From Corynebacterium sp. (lineage in GTDB: Bacteria > Actinomycetota > Actinomycetes > Mycobacteriales > Mycobacteriaceae), in contig NZ_JAUNLS010000011.1 of NCBI RefSeq assembly GCF_030532325.1, forward strand, positions 18,799 through 82,798: a stretch of 64,000 nucleotides of DNA, written 5' to 3'. A model generated the notes under the pieces. It was given only the letters and a program-made list of their open reading frames with translations. It searched no databases and was not told the origin of the DNA. Positions 10,617-49,666 of the stretch are shown in pieces (positions within the stretch are counted from its first letter, which is position 1; every line of letters begins with the position of its first letter). A program made the translations under genes and the position numbers.

Positions 10617-10622
10617 ACTGTG

Positions 10623-10648
10623 CGCGCCTGCGGCCACCCGCGGGCGCG
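10623..10648 (+). promoter_or_regulatory. GC-rich stem-loop between purQ and purL
   Basis: An 11-bp stem (CGCGCCTGCGG with CCGCGGGCGCG, one G-U wobble) with the tetraloop CCAC lies three bases before the purL ribosome site GGGAGAAAAG. There is no T-run, so it is more likely an mRNA-stabilising or translation-tuning element than a terminator. Confidence 0.6.
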
Positions 10649-10661
10649 AAGGGAGAAAAGA

Positions 10662-12935
10662 ATGTCTGTACACAACGACACCGTCGAGCAGGCCAAGGCG
10701 ACCCCAGAGCTGGATCAGCCCTTCCGCGAGCTGGGCCTCAAGGAGGACGAGTACCAGCACATCCGTGAGATCCTGGGCCGCCGCCCCACCGACGCCGAGC
10801 TGACCATGTACTCGGTGATGTGGTCCGAGCACTGCTCCTACAAGTCCTCCAAGACCCACCTGCGCTACTTCGGTGAGACTATGACCGAGGAGATGGGGGA
10901 GAAGATCCTCGCCGGCATCGGTGAGAACGCAGGCGTGGTGGACATCGGAGACGGCAACGCCGTGACCTTCCGCGTGGAAAGCCACAACCACCCCTCCTAT
11001 GTGGAGCCGCACCAGGGCGCTGCCACCGGCGTGGGTGGCATCGTCCGCGACATCATGGCCATGGGCGCACGCCCGATCGCCGTGATGGATCAGCTGCGCT
11101 TCGGGCCTGCCGACGCCCCCGATACCAAGCGCGTCCTGCCCGGCGTGGTGGGCGGCATTTCCCACTACGGCAACTGCCTGGGCCTGCCCAACATCGGCGG
11201 CGAGACCGTCTTTGACGCCTCCTACGCCGGCAACCCTCTGGTCAACGCCCTGTGCGTGGGCACCCTGAAGGTGGAGGACCTCAAGCTGGCCTTCGCCTCC
11301 GGCACCGGCAACAAGGTCATGCTCTTCGGCTCCCGCACCGGCCTGGACGGCATCGGTGGCGTGTCCGTGCTGGCTTCCGAGACCTTTGAGGACGGTGCCG
11401 AGCGCAAGCTGCCGGCCGTGCAGGTAGGCGATCCCTTCGCTGAGAAGGTGCTCATCGAGTGCTGCCTGGAGCTCTACAAGGCCGGTGTGGTCGTGGGCAT
11501 CCAGGACCTGGGCGGCGCGGGCCTGGCCTGCGCCACCTCCGAGCTGGCCGCCGCCGGCGATGGCGGCATGGAGATCAACCTGGACAACGTCCCGCTGCGC
11601 GCCAAAGACATGTCCGCTGCCGAGATCCTCGCTTCCGAGTCCCAGGAGCGCATGTGCGCGGTGGTGACCCCGGAGAACGTGGAGAGGTTCAAGGAGATCT
11701 GCGCGCACTGGGACGTCACCTGCGCCGAGATTGGTGAGGTGACCACCGGCGAGCACCTCATCATCCGCCACAACGGTGAGGTCGTCGTCGATGCCCCCGC
11801 CGGCACCATCGCCGACGAAGCCCCGGTCTACGATCGCCCCTGGGCCCGCCCCGAGTGGCAGGACGAGCTGCAGAAGTTCCGCGGTGTGGACTCCGCCCCG
11901 CTGGCGGAGACCCTCAAGCGCATGGTGGCGGATCCCGCTCTGTGCTCCCGCGATTTCATCACCGAGCAGTATGACCGCTACGTGCGCGGCAACACCGTCC
12001 AGGCTCACCACGCTGACTCCGGCGTGCTGCGCATCGACGAGGAAACCGGCCGCGGCGTGGCTGTCTCCGCCGATGCCTCGGGCCGCTACACCAAGCTGGA
12101 CCCGAACATGGGCGCGCGCCTGGCCCTGGCTGAGGCCTACCGCAATGTTGTGGTTACCGGCGCCAAGCCGGTGGCTATCACCAACTGCCTCAACTACGGC
12201 TCCCCGGAGAACCCCGACGTCATGTGGCAGTTCCGCGAGTCCGTGCATGGGCTTGCCGACGGCGCCGTGGAACTGGCCATCCCAGTCTCCGGCGGTAACG
12301 TCTCCTTCTACAACCAGACCGGTGAGGAGCCGATTCTGCCGACCCCGGTGGTGGGTGTGCTGGGCGTTATCGATGACGTGAACAAGTCCATCGGCCACCG
12401 CCTGGGCACCGTCAACGAGCCGGAGACCCTCATCCTCCTGGGTGAGACCAAGGACGAGTTCGGCGGCTCCATCTGGCAGCAGGTCTCCAAGGGTGAGCTC
12501 AACGGCCTGCCCCCGCAGGTGGACCTCAGCAATGAGAAGAACCTGGCTGAGTTCTTCGTGGGCAACGAGCTGCTCACCGCGGCCCACGATCTCTCTGAGG
12601 GTGGCCTGGCGGTTGCCGCATTTGAGATGGCCAAGCGCTCCGGCACCGGCCTGAAGCTGGACCTGGGCAAGGTGCACGAGGATGAGTTCGTGGCCGCCTT
12701 CTCCGAGTCCGCCTCCCGCGCCCTGGTGGCCACTACTGCCGACCGCGCCGACGCCGTGCTGGCCCGCGCCGCGGAGTGCAACGTCCCGGCCGTCATCGTG
12801 GGTGCTACTACGGAGGATGGCACCTTCACCCTGGGTGAGGAGAGCATCGAGGTCGCCGCCCTGCACGAGGCCTGGGCCGCCACGCTGCCCGATCTCTTCG
12901 GCCACGCTGTGGGCGCGAACTCCGTGGTGGAGTAA
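10662..12935 (+). CDS. purL: FGAM synthase large subunit PurL
   Basis: PurL catalyses ATP-dependent amidation of FGAR to FGAM with ammonia from PurQ. This is the small form (757 aa) that needs PurS and PurQ. Visible features are the catalytic histidine segment [12 protein letters not shown] near residue 50, [10 protein letters not shown], the repeated AIRS-synthase-like halves ([17 protein letters not shown] and [16 protein letters not shown]), and [12 protein letters not shown]. The start at 10662 follows GGGAGAAAAG; the in-frame ATG 42 bases earlier lies in the GC-rich hairpin and is rejected. A classic terminator follows. Confidence 0.96.
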
Positions 12936-16495: not shown

Positions 16496-16534
16496 AAAGG
16501 CCGTGGATCCGAGAAATCGGACCACGGCCTTTTC
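16496..16534 (+). terminator. Terminator after surface-protein gene
   Basis: Stem AAGGCCGTGG / CCACGGCCTT with a second inner stem TCCGA-GAAA-TCGGA, followed by TTTTC. It separates the surface protein from the restriction gene. Confidence 0.85.
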
Positions 16535-16599: not shown

Positions 16600-19500
16600 A
16601 TGTCCAAGTTCTCAGAGGTCCTCGACCAGCTGCGCGAAAACCAGCCCAAAGCACACTACGGCATCGCATTTGAGAAGTTGATGGTCAACTTCTTTAAGAC
16701 CGATCCCACGTTTGCTGAGCAATTCGATGAAGTCTGCCGCTGGATCGACTGGCGCTACAACGGCGGCAAGGCTGACACTGGCATTGACCTGGTTGCCCGC
16801 CGCGTCGAGGACGGAACGTGGACCGCTATTCAGTGCAAGTTCTATGCGCCCACCACCCGCATCCAGAAGTCGCACCTGGATTCATTCTTTGAGGCCTCGG
16901 GGCGCTCTTTCGAGACAGAGAATGGCCGCGAGCACTTTGGCAGCCGCCTGATCATCTCGACGACGGACCGGTGGTCCTCTCATGCCGAGGAAGCCCTCGC
17001 GAACCAAATCATCCCCACCAACCGCATTGGCATGGCAACACTCGGGGAGTCTCCCATCGACTGGGACGTGGCTTTCCCGGGTTCCGAAATCCAAATCAAT
17101 CTCACGCTGCGCAAGACCTTTGAGCCGCGACCACATCAGCAGGAGGCGATTGAGAAGGCCATTGAGGGATTCAAGACCCATGACCGCGGCAAGCTGATCA
17201 TGGCCTGCGGCACGGGCAAGACCTTCACGGCGCTGCGCCTGGCGGAACGCGTCGCGGAGGAACAGGGCGGCAAGGCCCGCGTCCTCTTCCTTGTTCCTTC
17301 CATCTCGTTGCTCTCGCAGACTCTCAAGGAATGGACTGCCCAGGGGCGCTTGGATATGCGCTCCTTCGCGGTGTGCTCCGATACCAAGGTCTCCAAGAAA
17401 GCCGAGGACATCGCCGTCTACGATCTCGAGGTTCCTGTCTCCACCACCGGCAAGGACATTGCCCGGCGCTTCGAGTCCGGTAAGCGCGCCAAGGGCCTGA
17501 ACATTGTCTTTTCCACGTATCAGTCCCTGCCGGCTGTACACGAAGCACAGAAGGAGGGGCTCGATGAATTTGACCTCGTCATCTGCGATGAGGCTCACCG
17601 CACCACCGGTATCACCCTGGCCGGTGAAGACCGCAGCAACTTCGTGGCCATCCACGACGCCGAGTACATCAAGGCGGCCAAGCGCCTCTACATGACGGCT
17701 ACTCCGCGCCTGTATGACGAGAACGTAAAGGGCAAAGCCGCGGATCATTCTGCTGAGTTGGCCTCCATGGACGATGAAGCCATTTACGGCCCGGAGTTCT
17801 ACCGCATCGGCTTCGGTGAGGCCGTGGATAAGGGCCTGCTCACGGATTACCGCGTGCTGGTCATGACGGTGGATGAGTCTGTGGCCGCGGAGGCCATGGC
17901 CTATACCGATAACAACCAGGTCAACCTCACTCTTGCATCCGCCATGATCGGCGCGTGGAACGGCTTGGCCAAGCGCTCAGGCGCCCTGCAGGGGCATAAG
18001 GGCGGGTTCGATGAAAATGCTCAGCCCATGAAGCGCGCGGTGGCCTTTGCCAAGGACATCAAGACCTCGCAACTCATCGCGGACTCCTACCCCTCGCTCA
18101 TCCACACGCACCAGGAGCTGCTCAAAGAAAAGGCCGTGCTTAACGATGTCTCCCTGACCAACGTCGATCTCAACGTCGCCGCCCAGCACGTTGACGGCGG
18201 CATGAACGCCTTGGAGCGCGGCACGCGCTTGTCCTGGTTGGAATCCCCGGCGCAGGAAAACCAGACTCGAGTGCTTACTAACGCCCGGTGCCTGTCCGAG
18301 GGCGTGGACGTGCCGGCCCTGGATGCCGTCATTTTCTTCAACCCGCGCAACTCCATGGTGGACGTGGTCCAGTCTGTCGGCCGCGTGATGCGCAAGTCCG
18401 AGGGCAAGGACTACGGCTACATCATCCTGCCTGTGGCGGTGCCGCCGAGTGTTTCTCCTTCGGAGGTACTCAATGACAACCAGCGTTTCAAGGTGGTCTG
18501 GCAGATCCTTAACGCTCTACGTGCCCACGATGATCGCTTCAACGCCAAGATCAACTCCATTGCGCTCAATGGGGGAGATTCGGAGCCAGTCCTTCCCATC
18601 CAGCCCATTCCGGTCACGCCGCCAGACAAAAACCAAAAGGACCAGAACCAGGAAGAGAAAAACCAAGAGGAGAAAGACCAAGAAGAAAAGAACCGGGACA
18701 AGCTGCAGGAAGCGGACACCTCGCCTTCGACGGACGCGCTTGAGGAAAACACCAAGATCACCCAGCAGATCGCCCTGTTCTCGCTGCAGCAGTGGCAGGA
18801 GGCCATCTACACCAAGTTGGTGGACAAGGTGGGCACCCGCACCTACTGGGAGGACTGGGCTGATGACGTTGCAAAGATTGCGGAGAATCAAATCACCCGC
18901 ATCCGCGCGCTCGTTGACGGCGCCGATACCGAGCTTCGCTCCGAGTTTGAGGGCTTCGTAGAAGGCCTGCGCAACAACCTCAATGACGGCATCGCGGAAG
19001 ATGACGCCATTTCGATGCTCTCGCAGCACCTCATCACGGCACCGGTGTTCAACGCTCTCTTTGAGAATCACGACTTCATCACCCACAACCCGGTGGCCCA
19101 GGTGATGGAGAAGATGGTGTCGGCGCTGTCCAAGGCCAACCTGGATACGGAAACCGAGTCCCTGGAGAAGTTCTACGAGTCTGTGCGCGTCCGTGCTTCT
19201 GAGGTCAGCTCTGCCTCCGGTAAGCAGCAGGTGATCAAGGACCTGTATGAGCGCTTCTTCCAGAAGGCCTTCAAGAAGCAGGCCGAATCCCTGGGTATCG
19301 TCTACACCCCGGTGGAAATCGTGGACTTCATCTTGCGTGCGGCTGATAGCGTCTCCCGCAAGCACTTTGGCAAGGGGCTGAGCGATGAAGGCGTGTGCAT
19401 CTTGGATCCCTTCGCTGGCACCTCGACCTTCACGGTGCGCCTTCTCCAGTCCGGCATTATCAAGCCGGAAGATCTCGCCCGCAAGTACGCCAGCGAGCTC

Positions 19501-21597
19501 TTTGCCACTGAGATCATGCTGCTGGCGTACTACGTTTCTGCCGTCAACATTGAGACCACCTTCAACGCCCTGCGCGAGGAGGCTGCGCTTCGCGACGGCG
19601 CACCCGCACCCGAGTACGTCCCGTTTAGCAACATCGCTCTGGCCGATACTTTCCAGATCCACGAGGAAGGCGATATCCCGGACCTCAATATCTTCCGGGA
19701 AAACAATGCCACTATTGAGCGCCAAAAGAACGCTCCGATCAACGTGGTGATTGGCAACCCGCCTTATTCTTCCGGCCAGAAGTCCGCGAATGACCTCAAT
19801 GCCAACCTCAAGTACCCGAGCCTGGATAAGCGCATTGCGGAAACCTACGCAGCAAAGTCCACTGCGACCAACAAGAACTCGCTGTATGACTCCTACCTGC
19901 GCGCCTTCCGCTGGGCCACCGACCGCATCGGTGACCAGGGCGTGGTGGCGTTTGTCTCCAACGGTGGCTGGATCGACGGCAACACTGGCGACGGCGTGCG
20001 CTTGTCGATGGCCGAGGACTTCACCGACCTCTACGTGTTTAACCTGCGCGGAAATGCACGTACCGCAGGAGAGACCCGGCGTGCTGAGGGCGGCAACGTT
20101 TTCGGTTTCGGTAGCCGAACAAATGTCACCATCACCCTCGGGATCAAGGACCCGACCAAGTCTGGTTTCGAGCTTCACTACCGCGATATTGGCGACTACC
20201 TGAGTGCCGAAGAGAAACTCAAGATTGTCGATGCCTCCACCATCGAATCGATTGACTGGCAGGAGATCACCCCGAACAAGGAAGGCGACTGGCTCAACCA
20301 GCGCTCAGAGGAGTTTGAGACGTGGCCGGTCATTAGTGAAAAGAAGGGCAACTCGATACGCTATTTTGATAGTTTTTCCGCTGGTCTCCAAACGAACCGC
20401 GATACTTGGGTTTACTCATTTTCCAGAGAAAGTCTTGAGAGTCAGGTAGTGCGCCTCAGGAAGTCGTATTCCGAAGCCCTACAAAAGATAGAGCCAAACC
20501 AAACCCCAAACGAACTATTTCACGCGGAACCGCAGCTCGTGGACCCAGCAAGAAGCAAATGGTCCTCAAGCCTAGAATCAGAACTCAACCGACGACGTCC
20601 ACTTGGCGAGGAGGGCACGTATCGGACTGGTCTATACCGGCCATTCTGTGTACAACGCGTGTATTTTGATGAGCAATTCAACCATCGCCAATATCAGCTG
20701 CCGTCGATGTTCCCGACCCCATCGCATCGAAATACTGGTTTCTATGTAGTCAATCCAGGCAGTGCTAAGCCATTTTCAGCAATTGCGACGGACTTGATTC
20801 CCGATCTAGCGATGTGGGGTAGCAATGCTGGCCAATTCTTCTCCCGCTTCACCTGGGCACCCGCCGAGGCGGAAGATGGTGGATTGTTCGGAGAGGAGGA
20901 CGTCGTCAAACGTGGCGAATCTAGCGTCTACGGTCAGATCGGTGAAGTTGTGGATGGCTACGTGCGCGTGGACAACATCACTGATGACATCAAGCAGATC
21001 TACCGTGATGCGTTGGGCACAGACATCACGGGTGATGACATCTTCCACTTTGTCTACGGCAAGCTGCACGACCCCGAGTACCGCACTCGGTACGCTGCGG
21101 ACTTGAAGAAGATGCTGCCGCATATCGAGACCCCGAGCTCGCGCGCGGAGTTCGATAAGTTTGCCGCTGCGGGTGCGGAGCTCATGGACCTGCACGTTAA
21201 CTACGAGACGATAGAGCCGTGGCCGTTAGATATTCAGGTCAAGGGCGATGAGTCTGATCGTGAGACCTGGCGCGTTCTCAAGATGAAGTGGGCTAAGTGC
21301 AAGGACCCGGAGACAGGCAAGAACGTCAATGACGTGACCAAGCTGATCTACAACAAGCAGGTCACCATCGCTGGTATTCCAGCTGAAGCTGACGAGTACA
21401 TGTTGGGCTCGCGCTCCGCGGTGGCGTGGTTGATTGACCGTTACCAGGTGAAGAAGGACAAGGCCTCGGGCATTGTCAACGACCCAAATGACTGGGCTGA
21501 TGAAGTAGGCAATCCCCGCTACATCGTGGACCTCATCGGGCGCGTTGTGCGCGTAGCCATGGAAACGGTACGGATTGTGGACGGGATGGAAGATTAG
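16600..21597 (+). CDS. Type ISP restriction-modification enzyme (nuclease-helicase-N6-adenine methyltransferase)
   Basis: A 1665-residue single-chain enzyme of the LlaGI/LlaBIII (type ISP) kind. An Mrr-like nuclease lies at residues 20-150 (D63 in GIDLVA, then QCK 78-80). An SF2 translocase follows, with Walker A ACGTGKT 202-208, DEAH 330-333, TAT 366-368 and QSVGRVMR 591-598. A very charged Asn/Gln/Glu/Lys linker (676-704) and a helical coupler come next. The gamma-class methyltransferase has DPFAGTSTF 936-944 and NPPY 1053-1056, and a target-recognition region occupies about 1240-1420. Known members methylate one strand of an asymmetric site and cut after head-on translocation. The ATG at 16600 (MSKFSEVL) is preferred over one 63 bases upstream that lies in the leader. 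The GHKL gene follows 15 bases after the stop. Confidence 0.93.
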   Translation: MSKFSEVLDQLRENQPKAHYGIAFEKLMVNFFKTDPTFAEQFDEVCRWIDWRYNGGKADTGIDLVARRVEDGTWTAIQCKFYAPTTRIQKSHLDSFFEASGRSFETENGREHFGSRLIISTTDRWSSHAEEALANQIIPTNRIGMATLGESPIDWDVAFPGSEIQINLTLRKTFEPRPHQQEAIEKAIEGFKTHDRGKLIMACGTGKTFTALRLAERVAEEQGGKARVLFLVPSISLLSQTLKEWTAQGRLDMRSFAVCSDTKVSKKAEDIAVYDLEVPVSTTGKDIARRFESGKRAKGLNIVFSTYQSLPAVHEAQKEGLDEFDLVICDEAHRTTGITLAGEDRSNFVAIHDAEYIKAAKRLYMTATPRLYDENVKGKAADHSAELASMDDEAIYGPEFYRIGFGEAVDKGLLTDYRVLVMTVDESVAAEAMAYTDNNQVNLTLASAMIGAWNGLAKRSGALQGHKGGFDENAQPMKRAVAFAKDIKTSQLIADSYPSLIHTHQELLKEKAVLNDVSLTNVDLNVAAQHVDGGMNALERGTRLSWLESPAQENQTRVLTNARCLSEGVDVPALDAVIFFNPRNSMVDVVQSVGRVMRKSEGKDYGYIILPVAVPPSVSPSEVLNDNQRFKVVWQILNALRAHDDRFNAKINSIALNGGDSEPVLPIQPIPVTPPDKNQKDQNQEEKNQEEKDQEEKNRDKLQEADTSPSTDALEENTKITQQIALFSLQQWQEAIYTKLVDKVGTRTYWEDWADDVAKIAENQITRIRALVDGADTELRSEFEGFVEGLRNNLNDGIAEDDAISMLSQHLITAPVFNALFENHDFITHNPVAQVMEKMVSALSKANLDTETESLEKFYESVRVRASEVSSASGKQQVIKDLYERFFQKAFKKQAESLGIVYTPVEIVDFILRAADSVSRKHFGKGLSDEGVCILDPFAGTSTFTVRLLQSGIIKPEDLARKYASELFATEIMLLAYYVSAVNIETTFNALREEAALRDGAPAPEYVPFSNIALADTFQIHEEGDIPDLNIFRENNATIERQKNAPINVVIGNPPYSSGQKSANDLNANLKYPSLDKRIAETYAAKSTATNKNSLYDSYLRAFRWATDRIGDQGVVAFVSNGGWIDGNTGDGVRLSMAEDFTDLYVFNLRGNARTAGETRRAEGGNVFGFGSRTNVTITLGIKDPTKSGFELHYRDIGDYLSAEEKLKIVDASTIESIDWQEITPNKEGDWLNQRSEEFETWPVISEKKGNSIRYFDSFSAGLQTNRDTWVYSFSRESLESQVVRLRKSYSEALQKIEPNQTPNELFHAEPQLVDPARSKWSSSLESELNRRRPLGEEGTYRTGLYRPFCVQRVYFDEQFNHRQYQLPSMFPTPSHRNTGFYVVNPGSAKPFSAIATDLIPDLAMWGSNAGQFFSRFTWAPAEAEDGGLFGEEDVVKRGESSVYGQIGEVVDGYVRVDNITDDIKQIYRDALGTDITGDDIFHFVYGKLHDPEYRTRYAADLKKMLPHIETPSSRAEFDKFAAAGAELMDLHVNYETIEPWPLDIQVKGDESDRETWRVLKMKWAKCKDPETGKNVNDVTKLIYNKQVTIAGIPAEADEYMLGSRSAVAWLIDRYQVKKDKASGIVNDPNDWADEVGNPRYIVDLIGRVVRVAMETVRIVDGMED

Positions 21598-21612
21598 AAG
21601 CACTTACAAGAC

Positions 21613-23109
21613 ATGAAACGACTAGATTCTTCTGAAATTTCGAAGACCATCGAACTTCCTCCGAGTGAATCAATTCATCAGGCACTTGGGGCGAACCACG
21701 ACTTGTGCTCTGGCATAGACGAGTTGGTCGATAACTCCATCGATGCGAATGCACAGAACGTTTGCATCGTCTTTAGAGTGGCAGGCTTTCGCCTTGAGCA
21801 GATTGATATCCATGACGACGGACTCGGAATGGACGCCGCAAAAATGGAGAGGGTACTGAGGCTCGGCGGTCACGAAGCACACTCCGACAACAACATCGGG
21901 ATTTACGGCATGGGGCTCAAAGAGGGATCCTTTGCCAACGCAGATGCATTCACCGTCGCTTCACGCGTAAAAGGGCATTTCGCCACGGGTATTCGCCTCC
22001 AAAAAGACAGCTTTGTTGCTGGCGTGCTCAACGAAAGAGCATTAACTCCGATATGGAATCTGCGCAGTGGATTGGTTAGTCCCAAGCACGGGACAACCGT
22101 AGTGTGGAATGCGCTCTCTGGTATCTACGAAGGAAACGACGAAGCTGAAGCTAACGCTTACCTTTCCACTACTATTGAAAAGCTGCGCAAGCACTTAGGT
22201 ATTCGCTATCATCGTTTTCTTGAACAGGAGCGAGTCAGCCTTCGCATTTTTGTAGTCTACGATGGCGATGGTCCACACGAGACTCCAAGCGTGTCTCCAA
22301 TCAATCCGTGTGGCTACCGTAAATCAGGGCACAAAAATTATCCTCGCCGCTTGAGCATTGGAGGAAGCCCGAACGCGCATGGTCTTACGGTGCATATTTG
22401 GACTAACCGCTCAAAGCTGGACGAGTTCCAACTTGAGTCAAAGGATGATCTAGGGCATCAAGGTTTCTATGTCTACATCGCAGACCGGCTAATTACGCAG
22501 GGGGGATGGTTTGGATTCCAGGAGCCTCGAAAAGACTACAAACTCTTGAGAGTTGTCATTGACGAGCCCGAAGTCATTAGGCAATACATAACAATTAGTC
22601 CTCAAAAGGGTTCTGTCCGGCTCGCCGAGGATTTCCACCGTTTCATGGAGAGTCTGCGTGTTGTGGGCGGCGATGACGCGTCTTTCGAGCAGGTTTGCAG
22701 TGATGCCGTTGAAGTGCTGAGAAACTCCAACCGGCGCTCAGGAAATCCGGATCCCCTCGCGGAAGGTGGGCAGGGCTTGGCGCCATCAATCAAAAGGGCG
22801 ATTGAAGATGAGGCTGTTATCAAGACGAGTGACCCCGTAAGCGTGGTGTGGACGAGCATTCCTAGCGGTGAGTTTGTTGAAGTGGATGCTAATCAAAGCG
22901 TCATTTGGCTGAATAAGGACTATCGAAAGCTTTTGAATCCTGGTAGGGGGACGTTTAATGATGCCCCTTTAGTTAAGACCTTGGTCTATCTGCTTTTTGG
23001 GGACATCGCTACCTCGAAAAAGACTGCGAAGGCAAAGGCTAACGCATCGTTGTGGTCAAAACTTTTGACGGTGGCCGCGGAGGAGCAGATCAAGCAACAG
23101 GAGAGTTGA
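21613..23109 (+). CDS. GHKL (MORC/MutL/Hsp90-like) ATPase, defence-associated
   Basis: The 498-residue protein starts with a Bergerat-fold ATPase: N-box ELVDNSIDA 37-45 (Glu37 general base, Asn41 Mg ligand), G1 motif DDGLGM 68-73, and lid GIYGMGLKEG 96-105. A transducer-like domain with the segment ISPQKGSV follows, then a C-terminal part of about 150 residues without recognised motifs. It lacks a histidine-kinase dimerisation domain. Bacterial MORC-like ATPases next to Z1 proteins were described in restriction-modification neighbourhoods (Iyer, Abhiman and Aravind). Here it sits between a type ISP enzyme and a Z1 gene. Base composition is visibly lower in GC than the core genes. The ATG lacks a strong ribosome site, suggesting coupling to the gene before it. 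Confidence 0.82.
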   Translation: MKRLDSSEISKTIELPPSESIHQALGANHDLCSGIDELVDNSIDANAQNVCIVFRVAGFRLEQIDIHDDGLGMDAAKMERVLRLGGHEAHSDNNIGIYGMGLKEGSFANADAFTVASRVKGHFATGIRLQKDSFVAGVLNERALTPIWNLRSGLVSPKHGTTVVWNALSGIYEGNDEAEANAYLSTTIEKLRKHLGIRYHRFLEQERVSLRIFVVYDGDGPHETPSVSPINPCGYRKSGHKNYPRRLSIGGSPNAHGLTVHIWTNRSKLDEFQLESKDDLGHQGFYVYIADRLITQGGWFGFQEPRKDYKLLRVVIDEPEVIRQYITISPQKGSVRLAEDFHRFMESLRVVGGDDASFEQVCSDAVEVLRNSNRRSGNPDPLAEGGQGLAPSIKRAIEDEAVIKTSDPVSVVWTSIPSGEFVEVDANQSVIWLNKDYRKLLNPGRGTFNDAPLVKTLVYLLFGDIATSKKTAKAKANASLWSKLLTVAAEEQIKQQES

Positions 23110-23260
23110 TTTTCTTCGCTGGGATCGCTCATCTGTTCGGAGACCATTGAATTGTAGGGTGCCATGTCCGGTTTCCCAGGTATTTTAGTTCTCGATTCTG
23201 ATTTTTTATGCGGTTCATCACTCTTAGCGGTGGTGGATTGCACTGCTGAGAGGAGCATAC

Positions 23261-26200
23261 GTGTCCACCCACCGAACTACCCCCGATGGCAATGACTATG
23301 CCAATATTAAAGAAGCTATTGCACATGTTCTTAACCCCTCAAACCTAAGCCTCCTTGCGTCCTTGCAGCAGCGTCTCGAATTGATGGAGGGGATGAGTCT
23401 TGACGAGCAGTCGCTCGGCGAATTTATCTCTCAGTCGTCGGAAGAAGAAATACAGCCGCTGATGACCTTTGTTCTCGCAGCAATTGACGGCGATAACTCA
23501 GTGATTAAGCCAAAGACTGATACTGAGCCAACGACTCAAGAGCGGAAAGAATGGGTCCTACAACAGCTTGGGCTTGAGGCCCAAGCAGAGTTGATCGAGG
23601 GGCGGCTTCCTGAACCGGAACCGACGGTAATCATCGAAGAGAGCTTTGACGAGTGGTATACGCCTGCACGCCAGACAGGGAATACAAAATATTGGGATGA
23701 CTATGTCCGCGTGCTTAGACGAAACGGATGGGATGCAGCATCGATTGATACTGTCGGAAAGCAAGCAACTGAGGTCATCCGTCGAATTGAAGATCCTAAG
23801 AAGCCGCACTATTTGTCTTCTCGTGGCTTGGTCGTTGGCTACGTACAAAGTGGTAAGACTGCGAACTTCACGGGTGTTGCTGCAAAAGCAATTGACGCCG
23901 GCTATCGCTTCATTGTCATCCTTGCCGGCACAATGGATAACTTGCGTGAACAAACCCAACGGCGCTTGGACAAAGAGCTGTGCGGCCGGGAAGCGGTTCT
24001 CAGCGGACTTGATGAGGACGATCTCACAGCCCGCGAGCGTAAAGACGAGACATATTTCAATGGCGACGAGGAATGGGAGCGAGACTGGGAAGAGAAGGGC
24101 GGAGCATTTCTTTCACATGGGGCTGTCTATGGACAGAAGGGCTTTCCGCGAATTAAGCGCGTAACGACTTCCGTACGCGACTATCGCCGTAACGGGACGA
24201 ACGCGATTGAGATCGAACGCCCAGACAAGACGAAGCCCGTGCATCACCCAGACAATTTGGACAGCATGCCATGTCTAATCGCCGTGGTGAAGAAAAACGC
24301 CAGCGTTCTAAAGAATCTGAATTCTGATCTTCGTCGGGCTGCTCGTCTTAACAAAGACTTGAAGGATCTTCCCATGCTGGTCATCGATGATGAGTCAGAC
24401 CAGGCTTCGATTAATACCAAGAACCAAAAGCGAACTTCGCTGGAGGAGAAGGAACGAACTGCGGTCAACGAGCAGATTACCGACCTACTCAGGACTTGCC
24501 CTCGTGCACAATACATTGGATATACCGCGACGCCGTTTGCCAATGTGTTTGTCGATCCTTCGGATCCTACCGATCTCTATCCCCATCACTACGTTTTATT
24601 GCTGAATGAGCCGCCCGCGTACCGAGGTGCCAAGTGGTTCCACGATCGTATGGATTTTGCTGATGACCCAGATGAGGCCACCATCGAGAATTCCCAGAGC
24701 AAGGCATTCATCAGAGACCTCGCTGACCGAGATGAATTCCCAGAAGATGAAGATTTCGATGCTATCCGAGTCGATGAACTACAAGAAGCACTGGACATGT
24801 TTGTGCTTACAGGCGCTATAAAGGAGTTCCGAGAGTCAAAGCATCCAGGGCTTACATTCAAACACCACACAATGCTCGTCCACGAAGGTGTTGGTACCGA
24901 AATCCACGGTGATGGAAAGCAAGTTCTCGAGGAGTTATGGCACAAGCGGGCCTACAACCTTCGGCGCACGATCCCCGCGTTGCAAGAGCTCTTTAAGGAA
25001 GATCTTCTCCCTGTGATGAAGATTGATAGGTTTAACGGTGGATACGCATGTCCAGAGTCATTCCAAGACCTCGAGCCGTTCATCGGCGAAGCGTACTCGG
25101 AAATGATGTCTGGAGTCCAGGCAGGCAAGAGTCCGATTCTTCAGGTCGACACGGTTGGCAAAGAGAGTCCCAATTTCGAGTCGGGTGGCGTATGGAAAGT
25201 CCTGGTCGGAGGTGCACAACTTTCACGTGGATATACCGTCGAAGGCCTGACTGTCTCGTACTTCCGGCGAAGGGCGGGGAGCGCGGATACCTTGATGCAA
25301 ACAGGCCGTTGGTTTGGGTTCCGCAAAGGTTACCAAGACTTGGTGCGATTGTATGCACCCCGTGATCTCGTCGAACTTTTTGAGGCCGCCATGCATGACG
25401 AAGAAGTGTTCCGTGACCGAGCCAAGGTTTATGCTCAGCAGGATCTTGACGATGAAAAACGCATGACGCCGAGACGGATTGCTCCCGTTGTCCAGCAGTC
25501 ACTTCCCGATCTCAAACCGACAAGCAAGAACAAAATGTTCAATGCCTACATTCGTTCGAGTGCAGCGGCGCCAAATGTAGTGGAATTGAACTCTATTCCG
25601 GACCGCAAGGAACGGGGCAAGCTAGCAGAGAACTTCCGCAACGTTGGCATTCCGCTTCTTCATGCACTCGAAACTGAGCCAACGAAGATGGCCTACTTCC
25701 GCCTCGAAGGCATGCGGTCCGGACGCGTCTTTGCTCACGCTGGTTACCGAGACTTCTATGCTGGCACGCTTCCGTCCAATTCGTTCGTAGCGTTACTCGA
25801 TGCAATGAAGTGGTACGACGGATCAAACTTCAAAGAGAACATCATTTCTCCCCATATTCGATACCTGAAGGGGTTAATGGGAACCGGTAAGCATTCTCGC
25901 GTGGCGGCATCAGACTTTAGCGAAGTTGCGGTTTTGCTTCCAGTGCTTTCGAAGAACCCCGAAACCATTGAGGTCCCAGGGATTCCTTTCCCAGTCCCAC
26001 TGGTGCGCCGCAGCCGCCGTGAAGATCGACACGATATTACTGGTACTGATCGTAAGTACACCTACATCATGCAGAGCATCGCGTCTGGTCAGTCAGTTCT
26101 TACCCCTCGTATTACTGACCTATCGGAGTACTCGGGGTACCTCAAGAACCCTTTTAAGCGACAAAAGGATCTCAAAGAGCCCTTTGACCTTGATCCATTG

Positions 26201-26455
26201 GTTGCAAAGAGCCGTGGTGCAGTCTTACTCACCGTGTTTGATGACCGAAACCCAGACGTGGTGAGCAACTCAAAGAAAAATGGCACCTTCGTTCCGCCGC
26301 GGTGGGATAAGGGGGAAGTCGGTCTTGCCTTGGCATTCAATTCTCCGCACGAAGCTGTGCGTGGTACGGCTGGAGTTGTTGAGTGGGGTGTTTACCTCCG
26401 AGGCGACGGAACCGGGGACGATGTGGTGATTGAGAGCTTCAGCGCTCAGGACTAG
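23261..26455 (+). CDS. Z1 domain-containing helicase-like ATPase
   Basis: A 1064-residue protein with the Z1 core: Walker A GYVQSGKT 193-200, an acidic Walker B segment LVIDDESDQAS 373-383, YTATPFAN 421-428, and the hallmark SRGYTVEGLT 655-664 followed by QTGRWFGFR 680-688. The last resembles helicase motifs IV-VI of SF2 enzymes. The N-terminal 130 residues look helical and acidic, and the C-terminal third has no recognised motif. Z1 proteins accompany MORC-type ATPases in defence clusters and are thought to work on DNA as a motor. The GTG start is preceded by GAGAGGAG. A 151-base AT-rich gap separates it from the GHKL gene and may hold its own promoter. Confidence 0.85.
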   Translation: MSTHRTTPDGNDYANIKEAIAHVLNPSNLSLLASLQQRLELMEGMSLDEQSLGEFISQSSEEEIQPLMTFVLAAIDGDNSVIKPKTDTEPTTQERKEWVLQQLGLEAQAELIEGRLPEPEPTVIIEESFDEWYTPARQTGNTKYWDDYVRVLRRNGWDAASIDTVGKQATEVIRRIEDPKKPHYLSSRGLVVGYVQSGKTANFTGVAAKAIDAGYRFIVILAGTMDNLREQTQRRLDKELCGREAVLSGLDEDDLTARERKDETYFNGDEEWERDWEEKGGAFLSHGAVYGQKGFPRIKRVTTSVRDYRRNGTNAIEIERPDKTKPVHHPDNLDSMPCLIAVVKKNASVLKNLNSDLRRAARLNKDLKDLPMLVIDDESDQASINTKNQKRTSLEEKERTAVNEQITDLLRTCPRAQYIGYTATPFANVFVDPSDPTDLYPHHYVLLLNEPPAYRGAKWFHDRMDFADDPDEATIENSQSKAFIRDLADRDEFPEDEDFDAIRVDELQEALDMFVLTGAIKEFRESKHPGLTFKHHTMLVHEGVGTEIHGDGKQVLEELWHKRAYNLRRTIPALQELFKEDLLPVMKIDRFNGGYACPESFQDLEPFIGEAYSEMMSGVQAGKSPILQVDTVGKESPNFESGGVWKVLVGGAQLSRGYTVEGLTVSYFRRRAGSADTLMQTGRWFGFRKGYQDLVRLYAPRDLVELFEAAMHDEEVFRDRAKVYAQQDLDDEKRMTPRRIAPVVQQSLPDLKPTSKNKMFNAYIRSSAAAPNVVELNSIPDRKERGKLAENFRNVGIPLLHALETEPTKMAYFRLEGMRSGRVFAHAGYRDFYAGTLPSNSFVALLDAMKWYDGSNFKENIISPHIRYLKGLMGTGKHSRVAASDFSEVAVLLPVLSKNPETIEVPGIPFPVPLVRRSRREDRHDITGTDRKYTYIMQSIASGQSVLTPRITDLSEYSGYLKNPFKRQKDLKEPFDLDPLVAKSRGAVLLTVFDDRNPDVVSNSKKNGTFVPPRWDKGEVGLALAFNSPHEAVRGTAGVVEWGVYLRGDGTGDDVVIESFSAQD

Positions 26456-26474: not shown

Positions 26475-26514
26475 CAGCCCGCCCGCGCTTCCAAAAGGAA
26501 GAGCGGGCGGGCTG
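26475..26514. terminator. Strong bidirectional terminator between Z1 and pilus cluster
   Basis: CAGCCCGCCCGC pairs with GCGGGCGGGCTG, extended by an inner CTTCC-AAAA-GGAAG stem. It lies between the convergent ends of the defence module and the pilus sortase gene, with a short A-run upstream that serves as T-run for the minus strand. Confidence 0.85.
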
Positions 26515-47050: not shown

Positions 47051-48601
47051 GTGATAGCTGAACACGATCCCCGTATCACTAACCCTTCCACCGACCGCGC
47101 TGATGATCTCGCTAATCACTCGGCTGATCATCTGGATGATCACAACGAGCCCGAACCCCGTGAAGAATGCGGCGTGTTCGGCGTGTGGGCGCCGGGCGAG
47201 GAGGTCTCCAAGCTGACCTACTTCGGCCTCTTCGCGCTCCAGCACCGCGGCCAGGAGGCCGCCGGCATCGCCGTCGGTGACGATGACCGCATCGTCGTCT
47301 TCAAGGACATGGGCCTGGTGGCCAACATCTTTGACGAGTCCATCCTTTCCTCCCTGCAGGGCGACGTAGCCGTGGGCCACACCCGCTACTCCACCGCGGG
47401 CGGCAAGGAGTGGTCCAACGTGCAGCCGATGTTCGGCACCTCGCCCAGCGGCGTGGACATCGCGCTGGGCCACAACGGCAACCTGGTCAACTACCTGGAG
47501 CTGCGCGAGGAAGCCGTCAAGCGCGGCCTGGTCAAGCCTGCCGAGGAATCCGTCTCCGACTCGATGTGCCTGTCCATGCTGCTGGCTGATGGCGTCAATG
47601 AGAACAACTCCGTCTTCGACTCCGCCCGCCAGCTGCTGCCGCGCGTCAAGGGCGCGTTCTGCCTGACCTTTACTGACGGCCACACGCTTTACGCTGCCCG
47701 CGATCCGCACGGCGTGCGCCCGCTGTCTCTGGGCCGTCTGCCCAAGGGCTGGGTTGTGGCCTCGGAAACCTGTGCGCTGGACATCGTGGGCGCACAGTTC
47801 ATTCGCGAGATCGAGCCGGGCGAGCTGGTGGCTATCGACGAAGCCGGTATCCGCTCCGAGAAGTTCGCCGAGCCCACCCGTCACGGCTGTGTATTCGAGT
47901 ACGTCTACTTGGCGCGCCCCGATACCACCATCAAGGAGCGCTCCGTCAACGCTACGCGCGTGGAGATTGGCCGCCGTTTGGCGCGCGAGTACCCTGCCCC
48001 GAACGCCGAGCTGGTCATCCCCGTGCCGGAGTCCGGCAACCCGGCCGCGGTGGGCTACGCCCGCGAATCCGGCATCACCTTCGGCCACGGCCTGGTGAAG
48101 AACTCCTACGTGGGCCGCACCTTCATCCAGCCCACCCAGTCCCAGCGCCAGATGGGCATCCGCCTCAAGCTCAACCCGCTGCGCGAGGTCATCGAGGGCA
48201 AGTCCATCGTGGTGGTGGATGACTCCATCGTCCGCGGCAACACCCAGCGCGCGCTCATCCGCATGCTGCGCGAGGCCGGTGCCGCCGAGGTGCACGTGCG
48301 CATCGCCTCCCCGCCGGTGAAGTGGCCGTGCTTCTACGGCATTGACTTCGCCTCCCCGGGCGAGCTCATTGCCAACGCCAATCCCTCCGAGGATTTGGAC
48401 GCGGTGTGCAAGACCATCTGCGACGCCATTGGCGCGGACACCCTGGGCTTTGTCTCCATCGAGGAGATGGTGGAGGCCACCCAGCAGCCGCGCACCGAGC
48501 TGTGCACCGCCTGCTTCGACGGCGTCTACCCCCTCGGCCTTCCGGCCGGTAACCCCAATGCTGAGGCCGTGCGTACCCTGCAGGGCTCGACTACCAAGTA
48601 A
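47051..48601 (+). CDS. purF: Amidophosphoribosyltransferase PurF
   Basis: PurF makes phosphoribosylamine from PRPP and glutamine, the first committed purine step. After a propeptide of about 39 residues rich in Asp and His (ADDLANHSADHLDDHN) comes the glutaminase cysteine Cys40 in EECGVFGVWAPG, exposed by self-cleavage. The PRPP loop VVVDDSIVRGNT and the cysteines of the iron-sulfur cluster region (ELCTACFDGVYP) are present. The start is GTG 47051. The propeptide is longer than in many species. purM follows after 12 bases. Confidence 0.95.
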   Translation: MIAEHDPRITNPSTDRADDLANHSADHLDDHNEPEPREECGVFGVWAPGEEVSKLTYFGLFALQHRGQEAAGIAVGDDDRIVVFKDMGLVANIFDESILSSLQGDVAVGHTRYSTAGGKEWSNVQPMFGTSPSGVDIALGHNGNLVNYLELREEAVKRGLVKPAEESVSDSMCLSMLLADGVNENNSVFDSARQLLPRVKGAFCLTFTDGHTLYAARDPHGVRPLSLGRLPKGWVVASETCALDIVGAQFIREIEPGELVAIDEAGIRSEKFAEPTRHGCVFEYVYLARPDTTIKERSVNATRVEIGRRLAREYPAPNAELVIPVPESGNPAAVGYARESGITFGHGLVKNSYVGRTFIQPTQSQRQMGIRLKLNPLREVIEGKSIVVVDDSIVRGNTQRALIRMLREAGAAEVHVRIASPPVKWPCFYGIDFASPGELIANANPSEDLDAVCKTICDAIGADTLGFVSIEEMVEATQQPRTELCTACFDGVYPLGLPAGNPNAEAVRTLQGSTTK

Positions 48602-48613
48602 GGAACTTCCACC

Positions 48614-49666
48614 ATGAGCGAAAACACCTACGCAGCCGCCGGCGTCAGCATCGAGGAAGGCGACCGTGCCGTCACCCTCTTCGCGCCGCACGCTAAGCGC
48701 GCCACCCGCCCGGAGGTCATGGGCGGCCTCGGCGGTTTTGCTGGCCTGTTCAAGCTGGGCAAGTACAACGAGCCCATCCTCGCCGCTGGATCCGACGGCG
48801 TGGGCACCAAGCTGGCCGTGGCCCAGGCCATGGACAAGCACGACACCATTGGCATCGACCTGGTAGCCATGTGCGTGGATGACCTCGTGGTCTGCGGCGC
48901 CGAGCCGCTTTTCCTGCAGGACTACATCGCCGTGGGCAAGGTTGTGCCGGAGAAGGTTGCGGAGATTGTCAAGGGCATCGCGGAGGGCTGCGTGCAGGCC
49001 GGCGCCGCGCTGCTGGGCGGCGAGACCGCCGAGCACCCCGGCGTGATGGGCGAGGACGAGTATGACGTCTCCGCCACCGCCGTGGGCGTTGTGGAGGCCG
49101 AGGAGCTGCTGGGCCCGGACAAGGTGCGCGACGGTGACGTGCTCATCGCCATGGGCTCCTCCGGCCTGCACTCCAACGGCTACTCCCTGGCCCGCTACGT
49201 CCTGCTGGAGCAGGCTGGCCTGCCTCTCGACGGCTACATGGAGGATCTCGGCCGCACCTTGGGCGAGGAGCTTCTGGAGCCCACCCGCATCTACGCCAAG
49301 GACTGCCTGGCGCTGACCGCCGAGTGCGCGGTGTCGACCTTCTGCCACGTCACCGGCGGCGGCCTGGCCGGCAACCTGGAGCGCGTCATTCCGGAGGGCC
49401 TGACTGCTGACGTGAACCGTTCCACCTGGACCCCGGGCCAGATTTTCAAGACCATCTCCTCTGTGGGCAAGGTGGCCCTGGAAGAGATGGAGAAGACCTT
49501 TAACATGGGCGTGGGCATGATCGCCGTTGTCTCCCCGGAGGATCGTGAGCGCGCTCTGGCCATGATGGCTGCCCGCCACGTTGAGGCCTGGGAGCTGGGT
49601 ACCGTGCGTGAGTCCGCCGAGGGCGAGCCGCGCGTCATCATGCACGGTGAGCACTCGAACTTCTAG
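48614..49666 (+). CDS. purM: AIR synthetase PurM
   Basis: PurM closes the imidazole ring of FGAM to AIR with ATP. The 350-residue protein shows AAAGVSIEEGDRAV, the AIRS motif SDGVGTKLAVAQAM, DLVVCGAEPLFLQDY, GGETAEHPGVM and HVTGGGLAGNLERVIP. It is the last gene of the purF-purM unit, with a long-stem terminator 28 bases after the stop. Confidence 0.96.
   Translation: MSENTYAAAGVSIEEGDRAVTLFAPHAKRATRPEVMGGLGGFAGLFKLGKYNEPILAAGSDGVGTKLAVAQAMDKHDTIGIDLVAMCVDDLVVCGAEPLFLQDYIAVGKVVPEKVAEIVKGIAEGCVQAGAALLGGETAEHPGVMGEDEYDVSATAVGVVEAEELLGPDKVRDGDVLIAMGSSGLHSNGYSLARYVLLEQAGLPLDGYMEDLGRTLGEELLEPTRIYAKDCLALTAECAVSTFCHVTGGGLAGNLERVIPEGLTADVNRSTWTPGQIFKTISSVGKVALEEMEKTFNMGVGMIAVVSPEDRERALAMMAARHVEAWELGTVRESAEGEPRVIMHGEHSNF

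Follow-up and report, generated by a model that had tools for sequence, protein, structure and literature searches.

We analysed a stretch of 64,000 nucleotides from a Corynebacterium sp. genome (contig NZ_JAUNLS010000011.1; hereafter the window), focusing on a locus in which the gene for a type ISP restriction-modification (RM) enzyme is followed by genes for a GHKL ATPase and a helicase-like protein. The first-pass annotation had described this three-gene locus from the letters alone, and our analysis confirmed its observation (Table 1) and supported its interpretation in part.

The trio and its products

Table 1. Features of the trio locus in window coordinates (aa, amino acids; AF2, AlphaFold2).
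Feature	Position	Strand	Evidence or remark
Strong hairpin and short T-run that probably terminate the upstream gene	16496..16532	+	Lies between the upstream gene and the ISP gene
Type ISP restriction-modification enzyme, 1665 aa	16600..21597	+	Pfam; structure matches 4xqk, 5ffj
GHKL ATPase, MzaB-like / MORC-type, 498 aa	21613..23109	+	Pfam; PADLOC and NCBIfam MzaB; AF2 model
Third gene of the trio	23261..26455	+	
Element downstream of the third gene	26475..26514	.	

Judged from its sequence, the first gene encodes a type ISP enzyme: a single chain with intact, conserved catalytic residues, in which Pfam annotations placed a Mrr-type nuclease, a superfamily 2 (SF2) translocase, a coupler, a methyltransferase (NPPY) and a C-terminal specificity domain. 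The reading frame is open already from 16537, and the start in homologues corresponds to 16600. As a member of this class the enzyme would be expected to cleave by translocation and collision and to methylate one strand. LlaBIII (4xqk) matched almost the full length of the enzyme and LlaGI (5ffj) matched as well; both are homologous to it and share its domain order. LlaGI and LlaBIII are described as single-chain enzymes that work alone (PMC4666363), whereas the window gene has two ATPase genes behind it. CglI/NgoAVII (PMC4267653 and PMC5737866) also count among the closest known systems.

The GHKL protein has the fold, intact ATP motifs (N, G1 and G2 boxes) and S5 domain that mark the MORC family, and its AF2 model (predicted local distance difference test score 71.8) resembles SMCHD1, MORC3, MORC2, Hsp90 and MutL. 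Compared by eye with the motif GhXhhpXXRhl of PMC2292703, the window sequence GFYVYIADRLI lacks the polar position, and GFYIYDQGRLI of locus L107 fits. The helicase partner, supported by Pfam, carries DTLMQTGRWFG.

Recurrence in Corynebacterium

The trio recurs in fixed order and on one strand in several skin-type and other corynebacteria, so it is not confined to one strain. Eleven ISP-linked sets were compared, and all three genes were intact in five of them (G000, G006, G017, G223 and G239). Since the trio occupied at least six genomic settings, with GHKL identities as low as 38%, the adjacency of the ISP gene and the pair of ATPase genes has been maintained across deep divergence, further than a single recombining site could account for.

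None of the 74 loci of the pair surveyed outside Corynebacterium had an ISP gene next to it; there it accompanies other, mostly RM, genes and is thus not bound to ISP enzymes generally. The pair was absent from all 60 other fetched ISP loci, including L067, L068, L080 and L081, near relatives of the trio enzymes. The association runs one way only.

The interval 10620-49666, which runs from a purL-like gene (10620-12935) to purF/purM-like genes (47051-49666; names by eye), contains the trio together with sortase/pilin-like genes and a gene for a surface-type protein. L080 and L081 hold a solo ISP gene between the same neighbours, and L015, L028 and L068 share one side, so this interval looks like an insertion hot spot.

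Relation to MZA and to MORC operons

The MZA anti-phage system, reportedly described by Gao 2020, comprises MzaABCDE, of which MzaA is a sigma-like protein. Both ATPases are related to this system and stand without its customary DNA-cutting and DNA-marking partners. The window GHKL protein scored 99.8 bits for MzaB (equivalog cut-off 850), and the MzaC score was 256 bits (cut-off 1500); both fall far below equivalog level. The window set contains no gene beyond the trio. PF14390 (DUF4420, the MzaD PD-(D/E)XK protein) had no match in the whole genome G000, DUF4420 was found in 2 of the 11 ISP-linked sets and missing from 9, and no C5-methyltransferase lies at the window locus. These results bear out the first-pass statement that the usual partners are absent and that their position is occupied by an ISP enzyme. 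For AIPR, PF10592 matched in 0 of 12 genomes searched, and the model may overlook diverged forms, since the 656-aa protein of an MZA-type locus in one of these genomes (L023, G017) has no Pfam match either. A further compared system with three core genes includes a PD-(D/E)XK protein (printed DUF4220) and a C5 methyltransferase, both missing here.

In Iyer, Abhiman and Aravind 2008 (PMC2292703), the third operon type of prokaryotic MORCs shares with the window a MORC-type GHKL protein and a superfamily II (SFII) helicase, whose motif DThhQXuRhFG corresponds to the window sequence given above. A separate restriction endonuclease (RE)-fold nuclease is consistent in those operons, and a methylase is frequent in such neighbourhoods. 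The term 'type ISP' does not occur in PMC2292703.

Variation in the ISP enzyme beside a similar pair

First, the ISP genes of L027, L028 and L068 are near-identical DNA in their first part, and the methyltransferase end and first half of the specificity domain are 64-83% identical; the recognition part has been swapped between close genomes. L068 displays the same exchange, yet lacks the pair.

Second, G/C tracts of 8-14 bases were observed at several different positions within 16 of 86 scanned ISP loci (L025, L059, L082, L087, L093, L098, L184, L186, L187, L189, L191-L193, L195, L196 and L200), and a tract lay at or near the frame break in 10 of 17 loci, which had been fetched for short open frames. 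Tracts of at least 9 bases numbered 6 in 343 kb of ISP open reading frames (ORFs) versus 0 in 550 kb of other ORFs (at least 300 aa, same loci); 67 full-length ISP genes held 4, against a mean of 0.74 and a maximum of 4 in 50 codon shuffles. This pattern suggests that Corynebacterium ISP enzymes are phase-variable through slippage; since the genomes are drafts, misread homopolymers are a possible alternative. With recognition domains exchanged and frames possibly switching at the tracts, self-restriction would be a risk.

It is improbable that the locus is a decaying remnant, an MZA-like locus on its way out after losing its nuclease and methyltransferase, given the five intact sets, ATPase motifs that stay unbroken despite large divergence between sets, and ratios of nonsynonymous to synonymous substitution (dN/dS) of 0.05-0.22 among close sets (comparisons involving the window itself were saturated). 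Because the locus lacks the nuclease carried by most relatives, the pair would need another effector. The first-pass idea that the pair uses, licenses or backs up the ISP enzyme is a conjecture. As the pair remains similar while the ISP recognition domain gets swapped, we infer that its target would more likely be the motor or the nuclease of the ISP enzyme than a sequence, and the ISP enzyme may have assumed the DNA-cutting and DNA-marking jobs of the pair's lost partners.
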